Of a stretch of 64,000 bases of DNA, positions 33,713-56,137 are shown in pieces. The position numbers and the translations under genes are program-made. Within the stretch, counting starts at the first letter, position 1; each line of letters starts with the position of its first letter. The notes below the pieces were generated by a model. That model saw nothing but the letters and a program-made list of their open reading frames with translations. It did no database searches and had not been told where the DNA came from. This DNA comes from a bacterium (GTDB lineage: Bacteria; Patescibacteriota; Saccharimonadia; Saccharimonadales; UBA4665), in assembly GCA_021777375.1 (NCBI GenBank), contig JAJYDV010000002.1, forward strand, positions 1 to 64,000, written 5' to 3'.

Positions 33713-34014
33713 TTCTTTATACCCTCTTTCCCCACTCTTAAAATAAATTGTAGAAAAAACTAAATGTTTTGTTTTCAATAGAATAAACACAAGTTTACAG
33801 AAACGCCAGCATATGTCTTAGCATAAGCGCATTAAAAGCCTTGGTTATCCACAAACTAAACAGAAACTATGCGTAGTAAAAAAAACATGTTTTCTTGATT
33901 TTTATTAAATAGTTTCAGTATTTAGAAATGATGCAAATTTTGTAATATTTTTAAAAATTAGTTTTGAAGTTGATTATTTACAGAGACCAGATAATAGTGT
34001 AGTCTAGTACGGTT

Positions 34015-34515
34015 ATGTCGTTAGTTATAGACTCACTTAATCGTTCCAACATGAAGCCGCAAGTTGTCCAAGTACGCAGTGGTGATACTGTTCGTGTGCA
34101 TCAGCGCGTGCGTGAGGGCAGTAAGGAACGGGTCCAGGTGTTCCAAGGCCTGGTTATTAAGACTTCTAAGCAAGGTGGTCATTTAAATCGGATCACTGTT
34201 AGGCGTGTAAGCGGTGGTGTTGGTGTTGAGAAGAGCTTTTTAATGCATAGCCCGCTAATTGTTAAGGTTGAGGTTACTAAGCGCAGTAAAGTTCGGCGCA
34301 ATTACTTAGCCTATATGCGTGATTTAACTGGTAAAGCGGCCCGCTTAAGCGGTATAGAATTTGATCGGCAAGCAGTTAACGAGACTTTAGAAGTTTCCGA
34401 GAATGTTCTTTTAGACGAAGTCAGCAAGCCGGATATTGAAACACCGAAGACTAAAACTCCCGACGAGGATGTTGAAGCCAAAATAGATTCAACAGAAACC
34501 GAAGCAAAAGAGTAA
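34015..34515 (+). CDS. rplS: 50S ribosomal protein L19 with acidic C-terminal extension
   Basis: RSGDTVRVHQRVREGSKERVQVFQGLVIK, FLMHSPLIVKVEVTKRSKVRRNYLAYMRD. Confidence 0.94.
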   Translation: MSLVIDSLNRSNMKPQVVQVRSGDTVRVHQRVREGSKERVQVFQGLVIKTSKQGGHLNRITVRRVSGGVGVEKSFLMHSPLIVKVEVTKRSKVRRNYLAYMRDLTGKAARLSGIEFDRQAVNETLEVSENVLLDEVSKPDIETPKTKTPDEDVEAKIDSTETEAKE

Positions 34516-34570
34516 TTTATTCTAGTAACTAGTAAGTAAATTCGTTAAATCAAGCTAAACTAATAAAATA

Positions 34571-35140
34571 ATGAGCTTGATGGTAGTCGGAATTGATGAA
34601 GTCGGCCGAGGATGCATTGCCGGACCGTTAGTTGTTGGAGCGGTCGCGCTGGATCGTCCAATCGATGGACTGCGCGATTCTAAAGTTTTGTCTAGTATTA
34701 AACGGCTAGTGTTGGCTCAGCGTATCTATAGTGAGGCATTATTTTTTGGAATAGGGTGGGTAAGTGCGGCTGAGCTGGATCGCATAGGCCTTACTAATGC
34801 CCATTCATTAGCATCGAAACGCGCCCTTGAAAGCATGAAATCATCAATCGCAAAGTATTTATTAGACGGCAATTATAACTATTTGCCACAAGAGTATAGC
34901 CCGGTCGAGTTATTAGTTCACGGCGACGCTTTAGAGCCCGCAATTAGTGCCGCCTCTATCATTGCTAAGGTAGCCAGAGACAATTTTATGATTAATCTAG
35001 CTCGATACTATCCCGAGTATGGTTTCGATAATCATGTTGGTTATGCCACTCAGGCGCACATTAAAGCCCTAAACAAGTATGGAGTCTCGCCGCACCACCG
35101 CAAATCATTTGAGCCGGTTAAGTCTATTTTGCAGGTTTAA
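34571..35140 (+). CDS. rnhB: Ribonuclease HII
   Basis: VVGIDEVGRGCIAGPLVVGAVAL, LRDSKVLS, AASIIAKVARDN. Confidence 0.94.
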   Translation: MSLMVVGIDEVGRGCIAGPLVVGAVALDRPIDGLRDSKVLSSIKRLVLAQRIYSEALFFGIGWVSAAELDRIGLTNAHSLASKRALESMKSSIAKYLLDGNYNYLPQEYSPVELLVHGDALEPAISAASIIAKVARDNFMINLARYYPEYGFDNHVGYATQAHIKALNKYGVSPHHRKSFEPVKSILQV

Positions 35141-37703
35141 GATAAAAAGCTGCAATCTTGGCCGCATCACGTTCTTTCCAAAGCGCCTGCCAAGTTATGG
35201 TTTCTAGGGCTTGATTAAATGGTCGTTTAAAGCTGGGTGTTAGATGCTTATTAAAAAACTCCTCAAAATCTTTCAAAAATGAGAAATCGTTTATGCCTCG
35301 AGCCACGTAGTTAGGCATGCGCGAAAAACTCAGATCGGAACCGAGATTTTTTTCCAGCCATCCCCAATGCTGTTTCAGCCATTGCCACGACAGATCTTTG
35401 GCAAAGCGGTTAGCAAAACTATAGCTTACCCAATAAGCTACGTCTTGCAGACGCACTGCATCGGATGTAATTAAGTCTAAGGAGCGGGCAATAAGCTCTG
35501 GTTGCTTAAAATTAGTTAAAGCAGATGCTAATGCCAGACGCTCTTCGCTACTGTCACTATTATTATGCATTTCTAAAAATAAATTAAACTCCTTGGCGCC
35601 GCCCTTTTTAGCTATAGTTTGATAAATAAGTGAGCGAATATCCGGATGGATTGTTACCTTAGTGCGGTTACTAAAGCGCGAGCGGACTTGGCTAAGCGCA
35701 TCCGGCTCATTGCTCATAGTGGCCAGTCCAAGAATTAGCGGCCGTAGCAGTTTATCGAAATGCGAATCCTCTTTTTTCTCATCCCAGCCGAGACGGGTGT
35801 ATTGTTCGGCAATTAGTTTATGCACTGAAGGATTCATTGCCTCACGTAAAGGTTCATTAGTGTCGATTAGAGTGCTGCGAACCCGAGCTAAATTTGAGGC
35901 GATTATCTCCCAAACTACTACATTGTTTTCATGCAAATAGGAGTTAAGCAACTTTAAAGCTGCATCGGTGCTAATTAGACCGGCTTTGGCTGCTTCAAAA
36001 TAGTCTGACAGTAAACCTAATCGGTCAAGAGGATCAAGCTTTAGCTGGCTTATGAGATCCATTAAGATATGAAGTTGGCGGTCGTCATAAATGACTCTAT
36101 AAAAACCACTGCGCCCTTGGTTTAGTACCAAAGGCTGCTTATTGTTAGCTAATTTGATGTTTATTAACTGCTCGGTTTTAGACAGCATAGCTAAACCCAA
36201 TTTCGGATTAGAGTTAAGCGGCAGCGGCCAAGTCGTTTCCTGATGTTTAGCTTTTGGAGAAAGGTAAAAGCGGGATTGAGATAGTTGCAATCTGTCTTTA
36301 GAAAATGTAGCTTTAAGAAGTGGATATCCGGATTGAGTAGTCCAGTCAGTCATAAAATTGGCAACCGGCTTGCCAGCTGTTTCCTCCCAAGCTTGCCATA
36401 AATCACTGGACTCGGTATTTGAGTAACTGTGTTTCTTTAGATAGATTTGGAGGCCTTTTTTAAAATCTTCATCACCTAAATAGCGCATTAGCATGTATAG
36501 GACACTAGCACCCTTCTCGTAGCTAATATTATCGAAAATGGAGCGAATTTCGTCCGGATGGTGAATTGCGACATTGACTGGATGAGTATACTCGAGCGAG
36601 TCAATTTTTAAAGCCGTCGCTTGCTCGTCAACAATAAACTGTACCCATACTTTCCATTCCGGAAACAAAGCGTCGACAGCTACATAGCTCATTAGCGAGG
36701 CGAAACTTTCGTTAAGCCATAAGTCATTCCACCAACGCATAGTAACAAGGTTACCAAACCATTGGTGAGTCAGTTCGTGAGCAATCACATTAGCGACGTA
36801 CTGCTTCATATTTAGACTGGTGTTTGCCGGGTCAACTATTAGACCTTGCTCACGAAAGGTTACAAGTCCCCAATTCTCCATTGCGCCACTGGCAAAGTCT
36901 GGCAACGCTACTAAATCGCATTTTGACAATGGATAGTCAATAGAGAAATATTGATTATAAAAATCTAAACACCGACTCGCGGTTTCAAGTGCAAAACTTG
37001 TATTTTTTATTAGGTCTGGGCGAGAGTACGTACGAACCCTCACGCCTGCTTTAGTAGTTGTCTCTAAATAGTCCAGTTTGCCAATAACGAAAGCTAATAG
37101 ATAAGTGCTCATCTTTGGTGTCGGAGCAAAAATAAACTCTTTAAACCCGGTTGCGTAATCCTTAGTTTCTATCAGCTCCGTATTAGCAAGTACAGTATTC
37201 CCTCGGCCAGTGATTAAGGATAGATTAAAAACCGCCTTGGCTTCCGGTTCATCGATACATGGGAAAACCTCGCGCGCATGATGGCTTTCAAACTGTGTAG
37301 CTAAAATGATTTCTTGTTTTTTAGAATCAGCTGTGTCATAAAAGCAAGGATACAGTCCTTCCATAGGTCGGGTGATGCGTCCACTATATTCAAGCTGGAT
37401 GGTGTATTCTCCCGGGTATAGTAAAGAGCTGCTGTGAAGTCTTAGCTCCTCATAACCTTGATGAACGGCAATCCGGCTCAAAGCTATCTCTTTTAGCGCA
37501 TCGTGATTTTTAACAAATAGCCGGGCCGATTTAATTTTTAATCTTTGGGCATGTAGCATGATCCGTTTTGACGGACGTCCACTTTTACGGCCGACCAGTT
37601 CTAACTTTCCCTCAAACCGCATTTTGTCTTTATCAGGATTAAGTTGCAGTTGGTACGAATGCGGCTCAAACTGGTCGTATAACCGGCGCACAAATCGGCT
37701 CAT
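35124..37703 (-). CDS. M1-family aminopeptidase (PepN-like)
   Basis: GAMENWGLVTFRE, VIAHELTHQWFGNLVTMRWWNDLWLNESFA. Confidence 0.95.
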   Translation of the reverse strand: MSRFVRRLYDQFEPHSYQLQLNPDKDKMRFEGKLELVGRKSGRPSKRIMLHAQRLKIKSARLFVKNHDALKEIALSRIAVHQGYEELRLHSSSLLYPGEYTIQLEYSGRITRPMEGLYPCFYDTADSKKQEIILATQFESHHAREVFPCIDEPEAKAVFNLSLITGRGNTVLANTELIETKDYATGFKEFIFAPTPKMSTYLLAFVIGKLDYLETTTKAGVRVRTYSRPDLIKNTSFALETASRCLDFYNQYFSIDYPLSKCDLVALPDFASGAMENWGLVTFREQGLIVDPANTSLNMKQYVANVIAHELTHQWFGNLVTMRWWNDLWLNESFASLMSYVAVDALFPEWKVWVQFIVDEQATALKIDSLEYTHPVNVAIHHPDEIRSIFDNISYEKGASVLYMLMRYLGDEDFKKGLQIYLKKHSYSNTESSDLWQAWEETAGKPVANFMTDWTTQSGYPLLKATFSKDRLQLSQSRFYLSPKAKHQETTWPLPLNSNPKLGLAMLSKTEQLINIKLANNKQPLVLNQGRSGFYRVIYDDRQLHILMDLISQLKLDPLDRLGLLSDYFEAAKAGLISTDAALKLLNSYLHENNVVVWEIIASNLARVRSTLIDTNEPLREAMNPSVHKLIAEQYTRLGWDEKKEDSHFDKLLRPLILGLATMSNEPDALSQVRSRFSNRTKVTIHPDIRSLIYQTIAKKGGAKEFNLFLEMHNNSDSSEERLALASALTNFKQPELIARSLDLITSDAVRLQDVAYWVSYSFANRFAKDLSWQWLKQHWGWLEKNLGSDLSFSRMPNYVARGINDFSFLKDFEEFFNKHLTPSFKRPFNQALETITWQALWKERDAAKIAAFYLKPAK

Positions 37704-37826
37704 AACTTTTAGCTATCCTCTCTCTGTTTACTGCTTAATTCTAGTTTAGCATGCTAAACTTAAGAAACAGGTTGGAAACGGTAATTGACTTAGAGCGACT
37801 TATAATGCTAAGGTAATACTATACGT

Positions 37827-37856
37827 ATCCGGCCGAATAATCAGGTCGGATTTTTT
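37827..37856 (+). terminator. Intrinsic terminator inside the nusA 5' leader
   Basis: ATCCGGCC-gaataatca-GGTCGGAT then TTTTT; 8-bp stem with one G-U; neighbouring upstream gene is divergent. Confidence 0.7.
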
Positions 37857-37887
37857 AATAGCCATAAAATAAGTTAAAGGCAGAACT

Positions 37888-39096
37888 ATGGATAATAATT
37901 TTGATTTCAAACAGTTAAGCGTCGCAATTAGAGCAATTGCAGAGGAGAAGAATCTTCCCGAGGAAACTGTGCAAGAAGCAGTAGAGCAAGCTTTAGCCGC
38001 CGCTTATCGACGCGACTATGGTGACCGTGATCAAGAGATCAGGGTTAAGATGAATTTAAATACCGGGGATGTCGATGCCTACACATCAAAAGAAGTTGTC
38101 GAAAAAGTTGAAAACCCGGCCTTCCAGATATCACTAGGTGAAGCTCAGGTAATGCAGAAGAATATTAAGATCGGCGATTTAATCGAGGTACACCAAAAAG
38201 TTGAAAATTTTGGTCGAGTTGCGGCTCAAACGGCTAAACAGGTAATCTTGCAGCGTCTGCGTGAAGCTGAGCGGGAAATTATTATGGCCGAGTTTGAAGA
38301 CAAAATCGGAACGGTCATTAACGCAATCGTTAACCGGGTGGAAGGAAGCGTGGTGCGTGTGGATTTAGGTCGTGCGCAGGGTATTATGCCAAGAAGTGAA
38401 CAGATTCAGGGTGAACGTTACTATCCCGGACAGCGCATTAAGGTCTTTCTTAAAGACGTTGAACGAGGCTTTAGGGGACCGCAGCTGGTTGTCAGTCGTG
38501 GTAACAAGGAATTTATCGAGTGGTTATTTAGAGGCGAAGTCCCAGAAATGGAATCCGGCGCCGTAGAAATTAAGGAATTGGCTCGCGAGGCTGGTGTGCG
38601 CAGCAAAATAGCCGTAGCCAGCAATGTGCCGGGCGTAGACCCAGTCGGTACTTTTGTAGGAGGTCATGGCACGAGAGTCAATGCTGTAATGAGCGAGATC
38701 GGCGAGCAGGAAAAAATCGACATTATTGTCTATAGTGATAAACCTGCGGTATTTATTACTAATGCCCTTAGCCCCACTAAAGTTACTTCCGTTACCGTCG
38801 ATGAGACTGCTAAACGCGCGCTAGTTAAAGTACCCGAAGATCAACAAAGTATTGCAATTGGAAAGGGTGGACAGAACGTTCGTTTGGCTAGCAAGCTTAC
38901 TGATTATGAAATAGATATTGTGGCTGATGCTAACGAAGTTAGCGCTGAGCCAGAAGAATCCCAAAATCAATTTGAAAAAAAGTCCCCCGTCGCAGTTGCC
39001 AAACCGCCACTGCCTGGACGGATTAAAAAGAAGACTGAATTAGAGAGCAGTTTAATTGATGCGATTGAGTCCACGCCAGAGGATCAAAGCAACTAA
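37888..39096 (+). CDS. nusA: Transcription termination/antitermination protein NusA
   Basis: YRRDYGDRDQEIRVKMN, S1 domain, NALSPTKVTSV, QQSIAIGKGGQNVRLASKLTDYEIDIV. Confidence 0.95.
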   Translation: MDNNFDFKQLSVAIRAIAEEKNLPEETVQEAVEQALAAAYRRDYGDRDQEIRVKMNLNTGDVDAYTSKEVVEKVENPAFQISLGEAQVMQKNIKIGDLIEVHQKVENFGRVAAQTAKQVILQRLREAEREIIMAEFEDKIGTVINAIVNRVEGSVVRVDLGRAQGIMPRSEQIQGERYYPGQRIKVFLKDVERGFRGPQLVVSRGNKEFIEWLFRGEVPEMESGAVEIKELAREAGVRSKIAVASNVPGVDPVGTFVGGHGTRVNAVMSEIGEQEKIDIIVYSDKPAVFITNALSPTKVTSVTVDETAKRALVKVPEDQQSIAIGKGGQNVRLASKLTDYEIDIVADANEVSAEPEESQNQFEKKSPVAVAKPPLPGRIKKKTELESSLIDAIESTPEDQSN

Positions 39097-39123
39097 TTAG
39101 CACTCTTGACTGGTGAGTGCTAG
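39097..39123 (+). promoter_or_regulatory. CIRCE operator (HrcA binding site) upstream of clpC
   Basis: TTAGCACTC-N9-GAGTGCTAG; contains the -35 TTGACT, followed after N18 by TATTAT. Confidence 0.92.
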
Positions 39124-39279
39124 AACGAGTATTATGTATATAATTGTCTATTTTGGACAATTTATATAACATAAATTAAGTACCCCAAATGCAGACTATC
39201 ATTAGCGTAATTTTTGCGCGCTAAGCATAAACAGTAAATCTTACAGCCGGGGCTCAAGGAAAGGTGCTAAATAGTAACT

Positions 39280-41775
39280 ATGATCCCCGAATCACCAGAC
39301 TTCCAAGAGTTTAGAAAACATTTAACTAATAACGCACTTTTGTCACTCAAGCATGCGGATGCGATTGCTCGTAGTTTGGGCAGTGCATACGTCGGAACCG
39401 AACATTTGCTACTTGGTATTTTAGCCCAGGAAAGCAGTATGGGCTCAAAGCTCTTGGAGCATGTTGGAGTGACACTAGATCGAGCCAGATTAGTTTTAAA
39501 TCTAACCCCCAAGTCTTTTGTGATTAATATAGGCGCTAAAGGATTAAGCGAAACCGCTAAACATACTCTGAAAACGGCATATGATATTGCGCAAGACTAT
39601 TCCCAGGATTTTTGCGGCACCGAGCATATTCTCTACAGTATTTTAAGTCAGCAAAAAGCTCGTGCAACCAAATTACTTAGAGATATGAATATCGATATCA
39701 TGGCACTAACTAATGAATTGGAACAGTTTCTTTCCCGGCAACAGTACATTGACCGAGAGGAAAATATTGGTCCGGGTTTGGGTCCGCGCAATGGTCTGCG
39801 CCATGCCAATTCAAAGAAATCGGTTTTAGATTTTTTTGGTACTGACATAACGGCTTTGGCACGTGAAGGTAAACTTGATCCGGTTGTTGGCCGAGAAGTC
39901 CAGATTGGTCGCATGATCACGATACTTAATCGTCGTATGAAAAATAATCCTGTCTTAATTGGGGAACCAGGCGTAGGTAAAACGGCTATTGTCGAGGGCT
40001 TAGCCCAACGGATTGTAGACGAGGAAGTGCCAGATAGCCTGTTAGGCAAGCGAATTATCATGATCGACCTAGCCGGTATGATTGCTGGCACTAAATACCG
40101 GGGCGAATTTGAGGACCGCTTGAAGAAAGTTATGGCTGAACTGGAACGTGACAAAAAAGCCATCGCCTTTGTGGATGAGATGCATTTAATTGTCGGCGCT
40201 GGTGCCGCCGAGGGCGCGATGGATGCGGGCAATATATTAAAGCCGGCTTTAGCGCGCGGAAAGATTCGTTTTATCGGGGCCACAACTACTGCCGAGTACA
40301 CCAAACATATCGAGAAAGATGCCGCTCTTGAACGCCGCTTCCAGCCAATTCAAGTTCCGGAGACTACCCCTGCCGAAACCTTTGCGATATTAAAAGGATT
40401 ACGTAAGCGTTATGAACAATTTCACGGCGTAAAACTGTCCGATGAAGTACTTCAGGATGCCGTTACCCTTTCCAAGCGTTATATACAGGACCGCTATTTA
40501 CCAGACAAAGCGATTGATTTAATCGATGAGGGCTCGGCGCAAGTACGTGTTGAAAGAGTTAAAACCAGCCCCGAAATTCGAAAACTCAATAAAGAGCTAC
40601 AACTAGTAAATTTACGCAAAGACGAGGCTAGTGATAATGAGGACTACCAGCTTGCGGCCCACTATAAAACTCGGGCTAGCCAAATAAGCGAGGAGTTGAG
40701 TTCCAAAGAAGCTTTAATCAAACAGGATAAAACTATTGAGCTTAAGAGCGATGATTTAGCGGACGTGGTCTCTAGAATAACCGGCGTGCCAGTGAAAAAA
40801 GTAATACGTACCGAAGCTAAGTATTTGCTGGACCTGGAAAAAACCTTAGGTAAATATATTATCGGTCAAAAAGAAGCGGTTAGCGCGGTGGCTCGTGCCG
40901 TTCGTCGTAATCGGAGCGGTATTGGTAGTGAGGCACGACCCATCGGTTCGTTTATTTTCTTGGGGCCTACCGGTGTTGGTAAGACAGAACTTGCCAGAGT
41001 ATTGGCCAGAGAGTTTTTTGGCAGCGAGAATGCATTAGTTAAGATTGATATGAGTGAATACGGCGAACACCATAATGTATCTCGATTAGTTGGTGCGCCG
41101 GCAGGGTATGTTGGTTACGATGATGGCGGACAGCTTACTGATAAGATCCGTAGGCAGCCATATAGCGTGGTATTGTTTGACGAAATAGAAAAGGCTCATC
41201 CGGATGTTTTCCACATGTTATTACAAATTCTTGAGGACGGTATCTTAACAGATGCCAAGGGTCGCCGAATTGACTTTACGAACACAATCGTAATTATGAC
41301 CAGTAATATTGGTGCCGAAAAATTGCAAAAGGAAGCTAGCCTTGGTTTTAGAATCGAGCGAGGAGCATCAAACTCACGCTTGCTAAGTTTGCATGCCGAG
41401 AATGAAGCGATGGTTTTAGATGAACTAAAACACCTCTTGCGTCCGGAACTGCTAAATAGAATAGATAAGGTAATTGTCTTTAATGCGTTATCTAAAAAAG
41501 ATATAAAGCGGATTATCGATTTGCAAATTGAAGAGCTTCGGGTTCGCCTGCGCCGTAAAGGCATCGGCTTAACGCTTACTCCTAAGGCGAAGGATTACCT
41601 GCTCGAGCATGGCTATGATTCACGTAATGGCGTCCGTCCCTTAAGACGACTAATCCAAGACACGATTGAAGATAAGATGGCACTAGAAGTGCTTGACGAA
41701 CATTACATCAAAGGGAATATCATACAGGTGGCCACCAAGAATGGTGAGCTTGCATACGCCACCCAAAATGAATAG
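39280..41775 (+). CDS. clpC: ATP-dependent Clp protease ATP-binding subunit ClpC
   Basis: Two AAA+ domains (GEPGVGKTAIVEGLA, GPTGVGKTELARVLA), N-domain repeats, UVR-like middle region. Confidence 0.95.
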   Translation: MIPESPDFQEFRKHLTNNALLSLKHADAIARSLGSAYVGTEHLLLGILAQESSMGSKLLEHVGVTLDRARLVLNLTPKSFVINIGAKGLSETAKHTLKTAYDIAQDYSQDFCGTEHILYSILSQQKARATKLLRDMNIDIMALTNELEQFLSRQQYIDREENIGPGLGPRNGLRHANSKKSVLDFFGTDITALAREGKLDPVVGREVQIGRMITILNRRMKNNPVLIGEPGVGKTAIVEGLAQRIVDEEVPDSLLGKRIIMIDLAGMIAGTKYRGEFEDRLKKVMAELERDKKAIAFVDEMHLIVGAGAAEGAMDAGNILKPALARGKIRFIGATTTAEYTKHIEKDAALERRFQPIQVPETTPAETFAILKGLRKRYEQFHGVKLSDEVLQDAVTLSKRYIQDRYLPDKAIDLIDEGSAQVRVERVKTSPEIRKLNKELQLVNLRKDEASDNEDYQLAAHYKTRASQISEELSSKEALIKQDKTIELKSDDLADVVSRITGVPVKKVIRTEAKYLLDLEKTLGKYIIGQKEAVSAVARAVRRNRSGIGSEARPIGSFIFLGPTGVGKTELARVLAREFFGSENALVKIDMSEYGEHHNVSRLVGAPAGYVGYDDGGQLTDKIRRQPYSVVLFDEIEKAHPDVFHMLLQILEDGILTDAKGRRIDFTNTIVIMTSNIGAEKLQKEASLGFRIERGASNSRLLSLHAENEAMVLDELKHLLRPELLNRIDKVIVFNALSKKDIKRIIDLQIEELRVRLRRKGIGLTLTPKAKDYLLEHGYDSRNGVRPLRRLIQDTIEDKMALEVLDEHYIKGNIIQVATKNGELAYATQNE

Positions 41776-42796
41776 ATCCATACTTGCCTCGTTAAGTAAT
41801 CCAAAACCTACACGATGTGTAAAAATTAGGCACTTTAGCTTAGGCTTACTGGCGGTTTTAATTGTCGCTTCGATGTTTTGGATTATCTATAACTTGAATA
41901 CGATAAGGGATTGGTATCTTCTTGCGACTTACCATCCACCTCAAATTGTGTCTCAGCTGGCCAGTGTAGATGGGATGACCAACTACGCTAAAGATTTATT
42001 TTATCTGAATCGTCCGGCAATTGAAGGCAAAAGTGCTTTTGCGGCTAACTGTTCGAACAAAGATAACCAGACTCATGTTATCGGCTGCTATCATGATGGC
42101 GACAATGGCATATTTTTGCTTAACGTCACCGATCCGCAATTAAATGGCATTATACCCGTTACTGCGGCTTACGAAATGCTTCACGCCGGTTATGCCAGAC
42201 TTTCAAAGACCGAGCAAACCAGTATTGACAATCAAATGTGGCAGTTTTATCAAGGTCACAATTTAGGTACAGAGATAAAGGCTCAGATGGCCTCCTACGC
42301 GGTTACTGAGCCGGGTGCTAAATATGACGAGCTATACTCAGTCTTAGGCACCGAGGTCGCAGCCTTGCCTGCTCAACTAGAAAATCACTACAAACTTTAC
42401 TTTAAAAATCGCGCCTCAATAGTTAGAACCTACCAAAATTATCAGGCCGCATTTAATTCTCGAGAAAATAGCATTGCCGCTTATAACAAAGAACTAACAA
42501 CTCTTTTGTCCCAAATCAATGCAAGTAAAAATCAGCTAACAGTTTTGCAAAATTCCATTACCCAGCAGCAAAATACTTTAAATCAATATCAAGCCAGTGG
42601 TAATTTTAGTGCCTATAACATTAATGTGCCGGGGTATAATGCGCTGATTAATCAATATAACGACTTAGTATATGCTACACGATCAGAGGTCAGTCAGTAC
42701 AACATTATTGTTGGGGAGAGTAACGCCCTGGCTCTTGAAGAAAGGCAACTAGTACAGGCAATTAGTTCGACTCCCAGCATTCAATCACCAAAATAA
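41768..42796 (+). CDS. Membrane-anchored protein with degenerate HExxH-like motif and coiled coil
   Basis: TM LGLLAVLIVASMFWIIYNL; TAAYEMLHAGYARLS; start at 41768 (8-bp overlap with clpC) preferred over 41693. Confidence 0.7.
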   Translation: MNRSILASLSNPKPTRCVKIRHFSLGLLAVLIVASMFWIIYNLNTIRDWYLLATYHPPQIVSQLASVDGMTNYAKDLFYLNRPAIEGKSAFAANCSNKDNQTHVIGCYHDGDNGIFLLNVTDPQLNGIIPVTAAYEMLHAGYARLSKTEQTSIDNQMWQFYQGHNLGTEIKAQMASYAVTEPGAKYDELYSVLGTEVAALPAQLENHYKLYFKNRASIVRTYQNYQAAFNSRENSIAAYNKELTTLLSQINASKNQLTVLQNSITQQQNTLNQYQASGNFSAYNINVPGYNALINQYNDLVYATRSEVSQYNIIVGESNALALEERQLVQAISSTPSIQSPK

Positions 42797-42816
42797 GGTA
42801 ATATAGCTTTACTAAT

Positions 42817-44160
42817 ATGTCTAAGTTAAAGTCAATAAAGCCTAACAATTATGTTTGTAATAACTGCGGTTCGACTTTTTCAACGTGGTCTGGACGTTGT
42901 GAACGCTGCGGTGAATGGAATACCTTAGAACTTAAAATCAGCAACCCTACTACTAGTCAGGGTCGTAGCGGACTAGTCGTTGAGCCAATTAGCCAAAGCG
43001 CTACGTTTTCTGAGCGCCGGATAAATAGCGGTATAGCTAGTGTCGATTCGGTATTTGGCGGTGGACTAGTTGAGGGCAGTGTCAGCCTGTTAAGCGGAGA
43101 GCCGGGCATGGGTAAAAGTACCCTCTTATTACAGTTAGCTTCGGCGATTGCTAAAAACCAATCAGTTTTGTATGTTAGCGGCGAAGAATCTGTGCACCAA
43201 TTGGCTGCCAGGGCGAAGCGCTTAGGGGCCGACCAGCATGTTTTTAATGTGGCCTCTAATAACTCTACCGAAGAGATTGCTGGAGAAATTTTGAGTGCCA
43301 AATATAAACTAGTGATTGTTGATTCCATTCAGACCCTGCGTAGTGAGCAAATTGGTTCTACCGCAGGTAGCGTCACTCAGGTGACAAGCAGCAGTGCCTT
43401 ATTAAGTAGTGCCGCTAAGCAAAGTAACACCGCTCTCTTAATTGTTGGACACGTTACTAAAGACGGAAATATTGCTGGTCCAAAGCTCCTTGAGCATGCC
43501 GTAGATACCGTTCTTAGCCTCGAGGGAGACCCTACGGTAGGTTTAAAGCTGCTTCGGGTAAGCAAGAACCGCTTCGGATCAACAAACGAAACTGCAATCT
43601 TTGAAATGCGCAGCAACGGACTAATCCCAGTGTTAAACCCATCAGCTTTATTATTAGCCGAACGCCAAATTAGCGACGGGTCAATTGTTCTAGCGGCTAT
43701 GGAAGGAAGTCGGCCGATTCTTGTTGAAGTTCAGGCTCTGGTAAATACGACCAGCTATGGCTATCCAAAGCGTGCCGCGAGTGGGCTAGACCTAGGCCGC
43801 TTAAACCTGCTCCTTGCCATGCTGGAGCGGCGCACCAAGCTCAAGCTTGGGGATAAGGACGTTTATCTAAATATTGTTGGTGGAATTAAGATTACCGAAC
43901 CAGCTGCTGATTTGGCAGTCGTAATGGCCATTGCATCGGCTGCTAAAGCTAAGCAATTAAAAGCTAATGCCGTGGTATTTGGTGAAGTCGGGTTGTCTGG
44001 AGAGGTACGTCACGTCCCAGGAATGGCCAAACGAATTGCCGAAGCTAAACAACTTGGTTTTGATTTTGCAATTGGACCAAAACCGCTTAATGCCAAACCT
44101 ACACCTTTGCTGCATCCGGTTAGCGATGTGCTAAGCGCCCTTAATACTTATCTATCTTGA
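42817..44160 (+). CDS. radA: DNA repair protein RadA/Sms
   Basis: YVCNNCGSTFSTWSGRCERCGEWNTL, GEPGMGKSTLLLQLA, KNRFGSTNE. Confidence 0.96.
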   Translation: MSKLKSIKPNNYVCNNCGSTFSTWSGRCERCGEWNTLELKISNPTTSQGRSGLVVEPISQSATFSERRINSGIASVDSVFGGGLVEGSVSLLSGEPGMGKSTLLLQLASAIAKNQSVLYVSGEESVHQLAARAKRLGADQHVFNVASNNSTEEIAGEILSAKYKLVIVDSIQTLRSEQIGSTAGSVTQVTSSSALLSSAAKQSNTALLIVGHVTKDGNIAGPKLLEHAVDTVLSLEGDPTVGLKLLRVSKNRFGSTNETAIFEMRSNGLIPVLNPSALLLAERQISDGSIVLAAMEGSRPILVEVQALVNTTSYGYPKRAASGLDLGRLNLLLAMLERRTKLKLGDKDVYLNIVGGIKITEPAADLAVVMAIASAAKAKQLKANAVVFGEVGLSGEVRHVPGMAKRIAEAKQLGFDFAIGPKPLNAKPTPLLHPVSDVLSALNTYLS

Positions 44161-56110: not shown

Positions 56111-56137
56111 CTAGCACTCTTGACTATTGAGTGCTAA
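56111..56137 (+). promoter_or_regulatory. CIRCE operator (HrcA binding site) upstream of clpP
   Basis: CTAGCACTC-N9-GAGTGCTAA; contains -35 TTGACT, N17 then TAAACT. Confidence 0.92.

Follow-up and report, generated by a model that had tools for sequence, protein, structure and literature searches.

The window analysed here, a 64,000-nucleotide stretch from a bacterium of the class Saccharimonadia, carries nusA on its plus strand (37888 to 39096), recognised by the Pfam NusA_N, S1 and KH domains of its product. Pfam analysis of the neighbourhood identified NusA, RNase HII, an M1 peptidase, L19 and a Clp ATPase. As the first-pass annotation had stated, no plus-strand gene ends shortly before nusA: pepN is divergent from it, and rnhB stops at 35140. 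A clpC-like gene, and not infB, comes 3' of nusA, both here and in many of the relatives; it has its own CIRCE operator and promoter in the window and often its own CIRCE in relatives. Two exact CIRCE operators (AGCACTC-N9-GAGTGCT; 0.01 expected by chance) occur in the window, at 39099–39121 and 56113–56135. The former lies directly after the nusA stop codon and before the clpC-like gene, its spacer containing the TTGACT of the predicted promoter, and a CIRCE follows nusA in 31 of the 73 loci examined. The region between pepN and nusA also contains a perfect 18-bp palindrome, AGTTTAGCATGCTAAACT, at 37743–37760. We discarded it as a regulator site, since close relatives preserve only part of it; the minus-strand –10 box of pepN may lie within it.

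The nusA leader contains a hairpin at 37827–37851 on the plus strand, ATCCGGCC-GAATAATCA-GGTCGGAT, which is evident from the sequence, from predicted folding and from a conserved core with covarying outer pairs in 76–79 leaders. Its arms (5' arm 37827–37834, 3' arm 37844–37851) form eight pairs around a 9-nt loop (37835–37843), including the internal G-U pair that had been noted earlier, G37832·U37846. Immediately 3' is a U-tract of six T (37851–37856), the first of which also closes the stem, and 31 nt separate its last U from the nusA ATG at 37888. The hairpin, the U-tract and their distance from the ATG are thus as first described. Folding of the leader, which the first-pass annotation had proposed, predicted this same hairpin, with an energy of −15.3 kcal/mol that was equalled by 4 of 200 shuffled sequences (z = −2.2). 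A generic terminator scan of the window did not report it, because its 9-nt loop exceeds the loop limit of that scan. Nevertheless, the sequence, the fold and the alignment described below agree on a G-C-rich hairpin directly followed by a U-tract, the form of an intrinsic terminator. A probable Shine-Dalgarno sequence, AAAGG (37876–37880, plus strand), sits 3' of the terminator.

The promoter first proposed for nusA combined TTGACT (37785) with TATAAT (37801). Both sequences are present, but they do not make a promoter: TATAAT (37801–37806) lies only 10 nt from TTGACT, a spacer that rules out the pair. TATAAT is also at a distance from the hairpin outside the usual range, and it has no counterpart in L002, a 92%-identical relative. 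Instead, TTGACT (37785–37790) pairs with TAAGGT (37809–37814) across an 18-nt spacer. TTGACT-N18-TAAGGT is the better promoter pair, because it is kept in L002 and because the 14 nt between TAAGGT and the hairpin core CCGGCC are the commonest gap among relatives (10–17 nt in most of 77 loci, with a mode of 14). A TTGAC-type −35 box is conserved in relatives 17–18 nt 5' of the −10 box, and the sigma70-type promoters upstream of their hairpins have a mean score of 11.3, compared with 3.9 (sd 2.4) for shuffled sequences. From the position of the −10 box, we infer a transcription start about 7 nt downstream, at 37821–37822 on the plus strand. The hairpin therefore stands between the predicted promoter and the nusA ATG, as in a leader attenuator. 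The transcript would begin about 6 nt 5' of the hairpin and would end near +36. Since the RNA would reach the hairpin after only about 6 nt, there is no space for an aptamer, a uORF or leader peptide, or an antiterminator; together with the lack of any Rfam match in an Rfam search of 34000–44000, this speaks against a riboswitch, a T-box or a ribosome-mediated attenuator.

To examine conservation, 80 loci were fetched by NusA protein similarity alone, disregarding the leader; their sources are recorded as Saccharibacteria, Patescibacteria or MAGs. One locus (L073) was left out, its NusA match having no N-terminus. The hairpin or a close variant lies upstream of nusA in the window and in 79 of 79 relatives, whose NusA identities span 57–92%; in five of these the stem or U-tract is slightly changed. 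Lack of the hairpin in sister genomes, which the first-pass annotation had named as evidence against its reading, was thus not observed. The core of the stem, CCG[R]CC..GG[N]CGG, is almost invariant; the loop is variable (about 3 to 12 nt) and the outer pairs covary. Counting from the loop, the fifth pair is C-G and the fourth G-C in all 79 aligned leaders, while the third is G·U in 69 and A-U in the other 10. Further out, the pairs vary among C-G, U-G and U-A and among U-A, G-C and A-U. T is likewise invariant (79/79) at U-tract positions 10–12. On the alignment, 96.2% of cells are paired compared with 92.0% in shuffles, and 21 cells show double changes compared with 6.7, counts that are inflated by the relatedness of the sequences and do not represent independent trials; sliding the partner along the alignment abolished the pairing. 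Conservation of the hairpin is far beyond chance. On this evidence we regard the element as a strongly conserved, promoter-proximal, predicted intrinsic terminator.

Between the terminator and the ATG of the relatives, only the Shine-Dalgarno sequence stands out, GAAAGGA being the most enriched word. We also considered TTACAATTTRGA as a conserved element of this interval and rejected it: only 8 of 75 loci contain it, and its words are no more frequent than in shuffled sequence. In these loci (L014, L015, L022, L029, L039, L048, L054 and L064) it lies between the terminator and the Shine-Dalgarno sequence, where it might serve as another promoter or as a binding site.

How closely the hairpin is tied to nusA was addressed with a covariance model, which was only briefly calibrated, affecting its E-values, and was searched against 195 Saccharimonadia genomes that may overlap with those from which it was built. 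It matched in 117 of the 195, and in 104 a match lay on the nusA strand, 16–225 nt before the gene. Among 100 matches above 30 bits, 92 were upstream of nusA. Three of the remaining eight (G127, G033 and G111) also precede a nusA coding sequence, one that was missing from the compared NusA list or located on a second contig, and two (G104 and G080) are directly 3' of tRNA genes. The genome of the window has one further CCGRCC..GGTCGG, within an apparent coding sequence and without a T-run. We rejected a wider regulon sharing the hairpin, given this single further match and because in relatives the inspected matches elsewhere were often tRNA terminators or further nusA leaders. In L104, L107, L108, L109 and L115, tRNA genes are followed by terminators whose stems resemble that of the nusA leader (for example, CCCGACC..GGTCGGG). 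Given such CCGACC/GGTCGG tRNA terminators in some genomes, the stem likeness is partly not nusA-specific. Of 72 loci, 52 have a divergent gene upstream of nusA and 20 a codirectional one; from these orientations and the 104 genomes, the hairpin is conserved with nusA independently of its neighbours.

The third pair from the loop, G37832·U37846 in the window, is a conserved weak pair in the middle of the stem. Its 3' partner is U in all 79 leaders of the first set. A stem search allowing any base at this position recovered 117 stems, of which two (L075 and L101) were excluded as wrong picks. In the remaining 115 leaders the pair is G·U in 74, A·C in 13, A-U in 11, G·A in 8, A·G in 6 and G·G in 3; its 5' side is always a purine, and G-C or C-G was found in none of the 115. 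The covariance model mostly misses two genera, g21 and g29, although the hairpin is present there too, with a different non-G-C pair at this position; in g21 the pair is non-Watson-Crick in 28 of 28 leaders scored (30 loci fetched). The pair type has changed at least 19 times on a tree of 110 NusA proteins. By comparison, control terminators at the 3' ends of genes in the same genomes have G-C in 11 of 20 pairs of comparable G-C context, a small set that includes some CIRCE elements. Avoidance of self-complementary arms was considered as the cause of the missing G-C, but it fails for the g21 stems CCGGCTC..GAGACGG, which with G-C would not be self-complementary and are still mismatched. The stem of the window, at a predicted −11.9 kcal/mol, is only modestly weaker than the ordinary terminators of these genomes (median −14.2). 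The hairpin is suboptimal at one position, where G-C never occurs, and only modestly so in overall energy. The earlier description of a weak, factor-tunable terminator gains support from this avoidance of G-C in every leader scored.

Leader hairpins are not confined to Saccharimonadia. We examined 30 nusA loci, most of them from other Patescibacteria classes: a terminator-like hairpin lies in the 250 nt before nusA in 23, compared with 0.6 expected from shuffles. Many of those from other classes directly follow a promoter, and their stems are lineage-specific; some may be terminators of upstream genes. In one such class, the nusA-leader hairpins of three out of three genera (L160, L164 and L210) have the form GGTGAGG..CCCCACC, with A·C in mid-stem. 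A weak mid-stem pair thus recurs outside Saccharimonadia, but further classes have fully paired stems.

In many bacteria an attenuator precedes the rimP-nusA-infB operon, making RimP and NusA both candidate regulators. RimP was found in none of 41 relatives, by a search that was positive in 10 of 14 control genomes. The presence of the element on nusA alone, where RimP was not found, favours NusA as the regulator. No match to Rho exceeded the cut-off in the same 41 relatives; the weak matches below it are most likely related ATPases.

The rimP-leader has been described as the most ubiquitous attenuator, with NusA as its likely regulator (Naville and Gautheret, 2010, PMC2965389; Rfam models a rimP leader as RF01770). 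The element described here resembles it in being a short terminator of unusually conserved stem sequence that precedes a nusA-bearing operon, in having no visible antiterminator in its general form, and in that NusA is the proposed regulator. However, its stem reads CCGRCC..GGNCGG where the rimP-leader has GGGc..gCCC, and the gene directly behind it is nusA and not rimP. The region 34000–44000 has no Rfam match, and RF01770 has none in the window's genome. Because of the different stem sequence and the position on nusA itself, we do not assign the nusA-leader hairpin to the rimP-leader family, although geometry and setting are shared. In B. subtilis, as summarised in PMC12288461 after Mondal 2016, NusA is reported to stimulate termination in its own leader, and it helps suboptimal hairpins (see also PMC8060035). 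That terminator, like the one predicted here, is part of the 5' leader of the transcription unit with nusA and limits transcription into the gene, but it belongs to a long leader (180 nt; PMC2965389) in front of rimP, and the effect of NusA was tested there. For the rimP-nusA-infB transcript of S. agalactiae, an end 31 nt downstream of the transcription start has been described, with feedback by NusA as the proposed control (PMC4448216). This is close to the geometry predicted here; the operon, however, contains rimP and infB, and the comparison is one of geometry. A non-exhaustive literature search found no paper on the nusA leader of Saccharibacteria.

Taken together, three features strongly support attenuation in the nusA leader, as originally suggested, as the likely role of the hairpin: conservation throughout the class, a fixed position right behind a sigma70-type promoter, and an association with nusA that does not depend on which gene lies next to it. 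We think it likely that the hairpin is a promoter-proximal intrinsic terminator that attenuates nusA, with NusA as the likely factor. The cases of B. subtilis (PMC12288461) and S. agalactiae (PMC4448216) make NusA the best candidate for the effector by analogy, and autoregulation the best inference. RNA polymerase would start about 6 nt before the hairpin and, by about +36, would either release an RNA of about 36 nt at the U-tract, the expected site of termination in vivo, or continue into nusA. The weak or mismatched pair amid a fixed G-C core would keep the stem suboptimal, so that termination would depend on a factor that aids hairpin formation. If that factor is NusA, more NusA would lead to more termination and less nusA mRNA; the hairpin would then probably let NusA limit its own production.

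A leader attenuator could also sense something other than NusA, such as NusG, a ribosomal or Nus-complex protein, nucleotide levels or the switch from sigma to elongation. Termination at about +36 would occur near promoter escape, NusG too stimulates suboptimal terminators in B. subtilis (PMC8060035), and the fixed flanking stem bases would suit a specific binder, so that recognition by another RNA-binding protein is possible. Yet the element follows nusA alone, without rimP or infB, and the known parallel systems point to NusA; we consider a different signal unlikely. More improbable still is that the hairpin is not a terminator at all and instead protects the nusA mRNA or positions ribosomes. 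Stabilising stems do occur at the extreme 5' ends of mRNAs, and the hairpin would be placed there, but a stabiliser would not need the U-tract that is kept at the foot of the stem in all 79 leaders, and the stem retains its weak pair instead of reaching maximum stability.

The released RNA might itself act in trans. In E. coli, the greA leader yields terminated RNAs of 37–59 nt (GraL), similar in size to the one predicted here, which act both in trans and in cis (PMC6829880). The two cases would share a transcription-factor gene, a leader terminator within about 40–60 nt of the start and feedback by the product, and they differ in the gene and factor concerned, in the action of GraL in trans and in its imprecise termination. 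A small RNA of this kind seems very improbable here, as the loop and 5' tail that base pairing would need vary freely in length and sequence. We give least credence to the reading that the hairpin terminates an upstream gene or acts as a DNA operator. The codirectional upstream genes of 20 of the 72 loci would allow the former, but most of these loci have a divergent gene there and the promoter is directly 5' of the hairpin, while a loop of about 3 to 12 nt fits no operator of fixed spacing.

Returning to attenuation by NusA, a more specific model can be put forward tentatively, and we hold it at slightly short of even chances: that the weak pair is a conserved calibration element, at which evolution exchanges G·U, A·C, G·A, A·G, G·G and A-U for one another but excludes G-C to keep termination dependent on NusA, and that the leader is a self-contained NusA-level sensor of about 36 nt, serving nusA only, in bacteria that have no recognisable RimP or Rho; elsewhere in Patescibacteria, lineage-specific stems would take its place. 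The position-specific exclusion of a strong pair offers a simple, testable rule for tuning factor-dependent terminators, and the leader would add a regulatory RNA element to the little-studied gene regulation of Patescibacteria.
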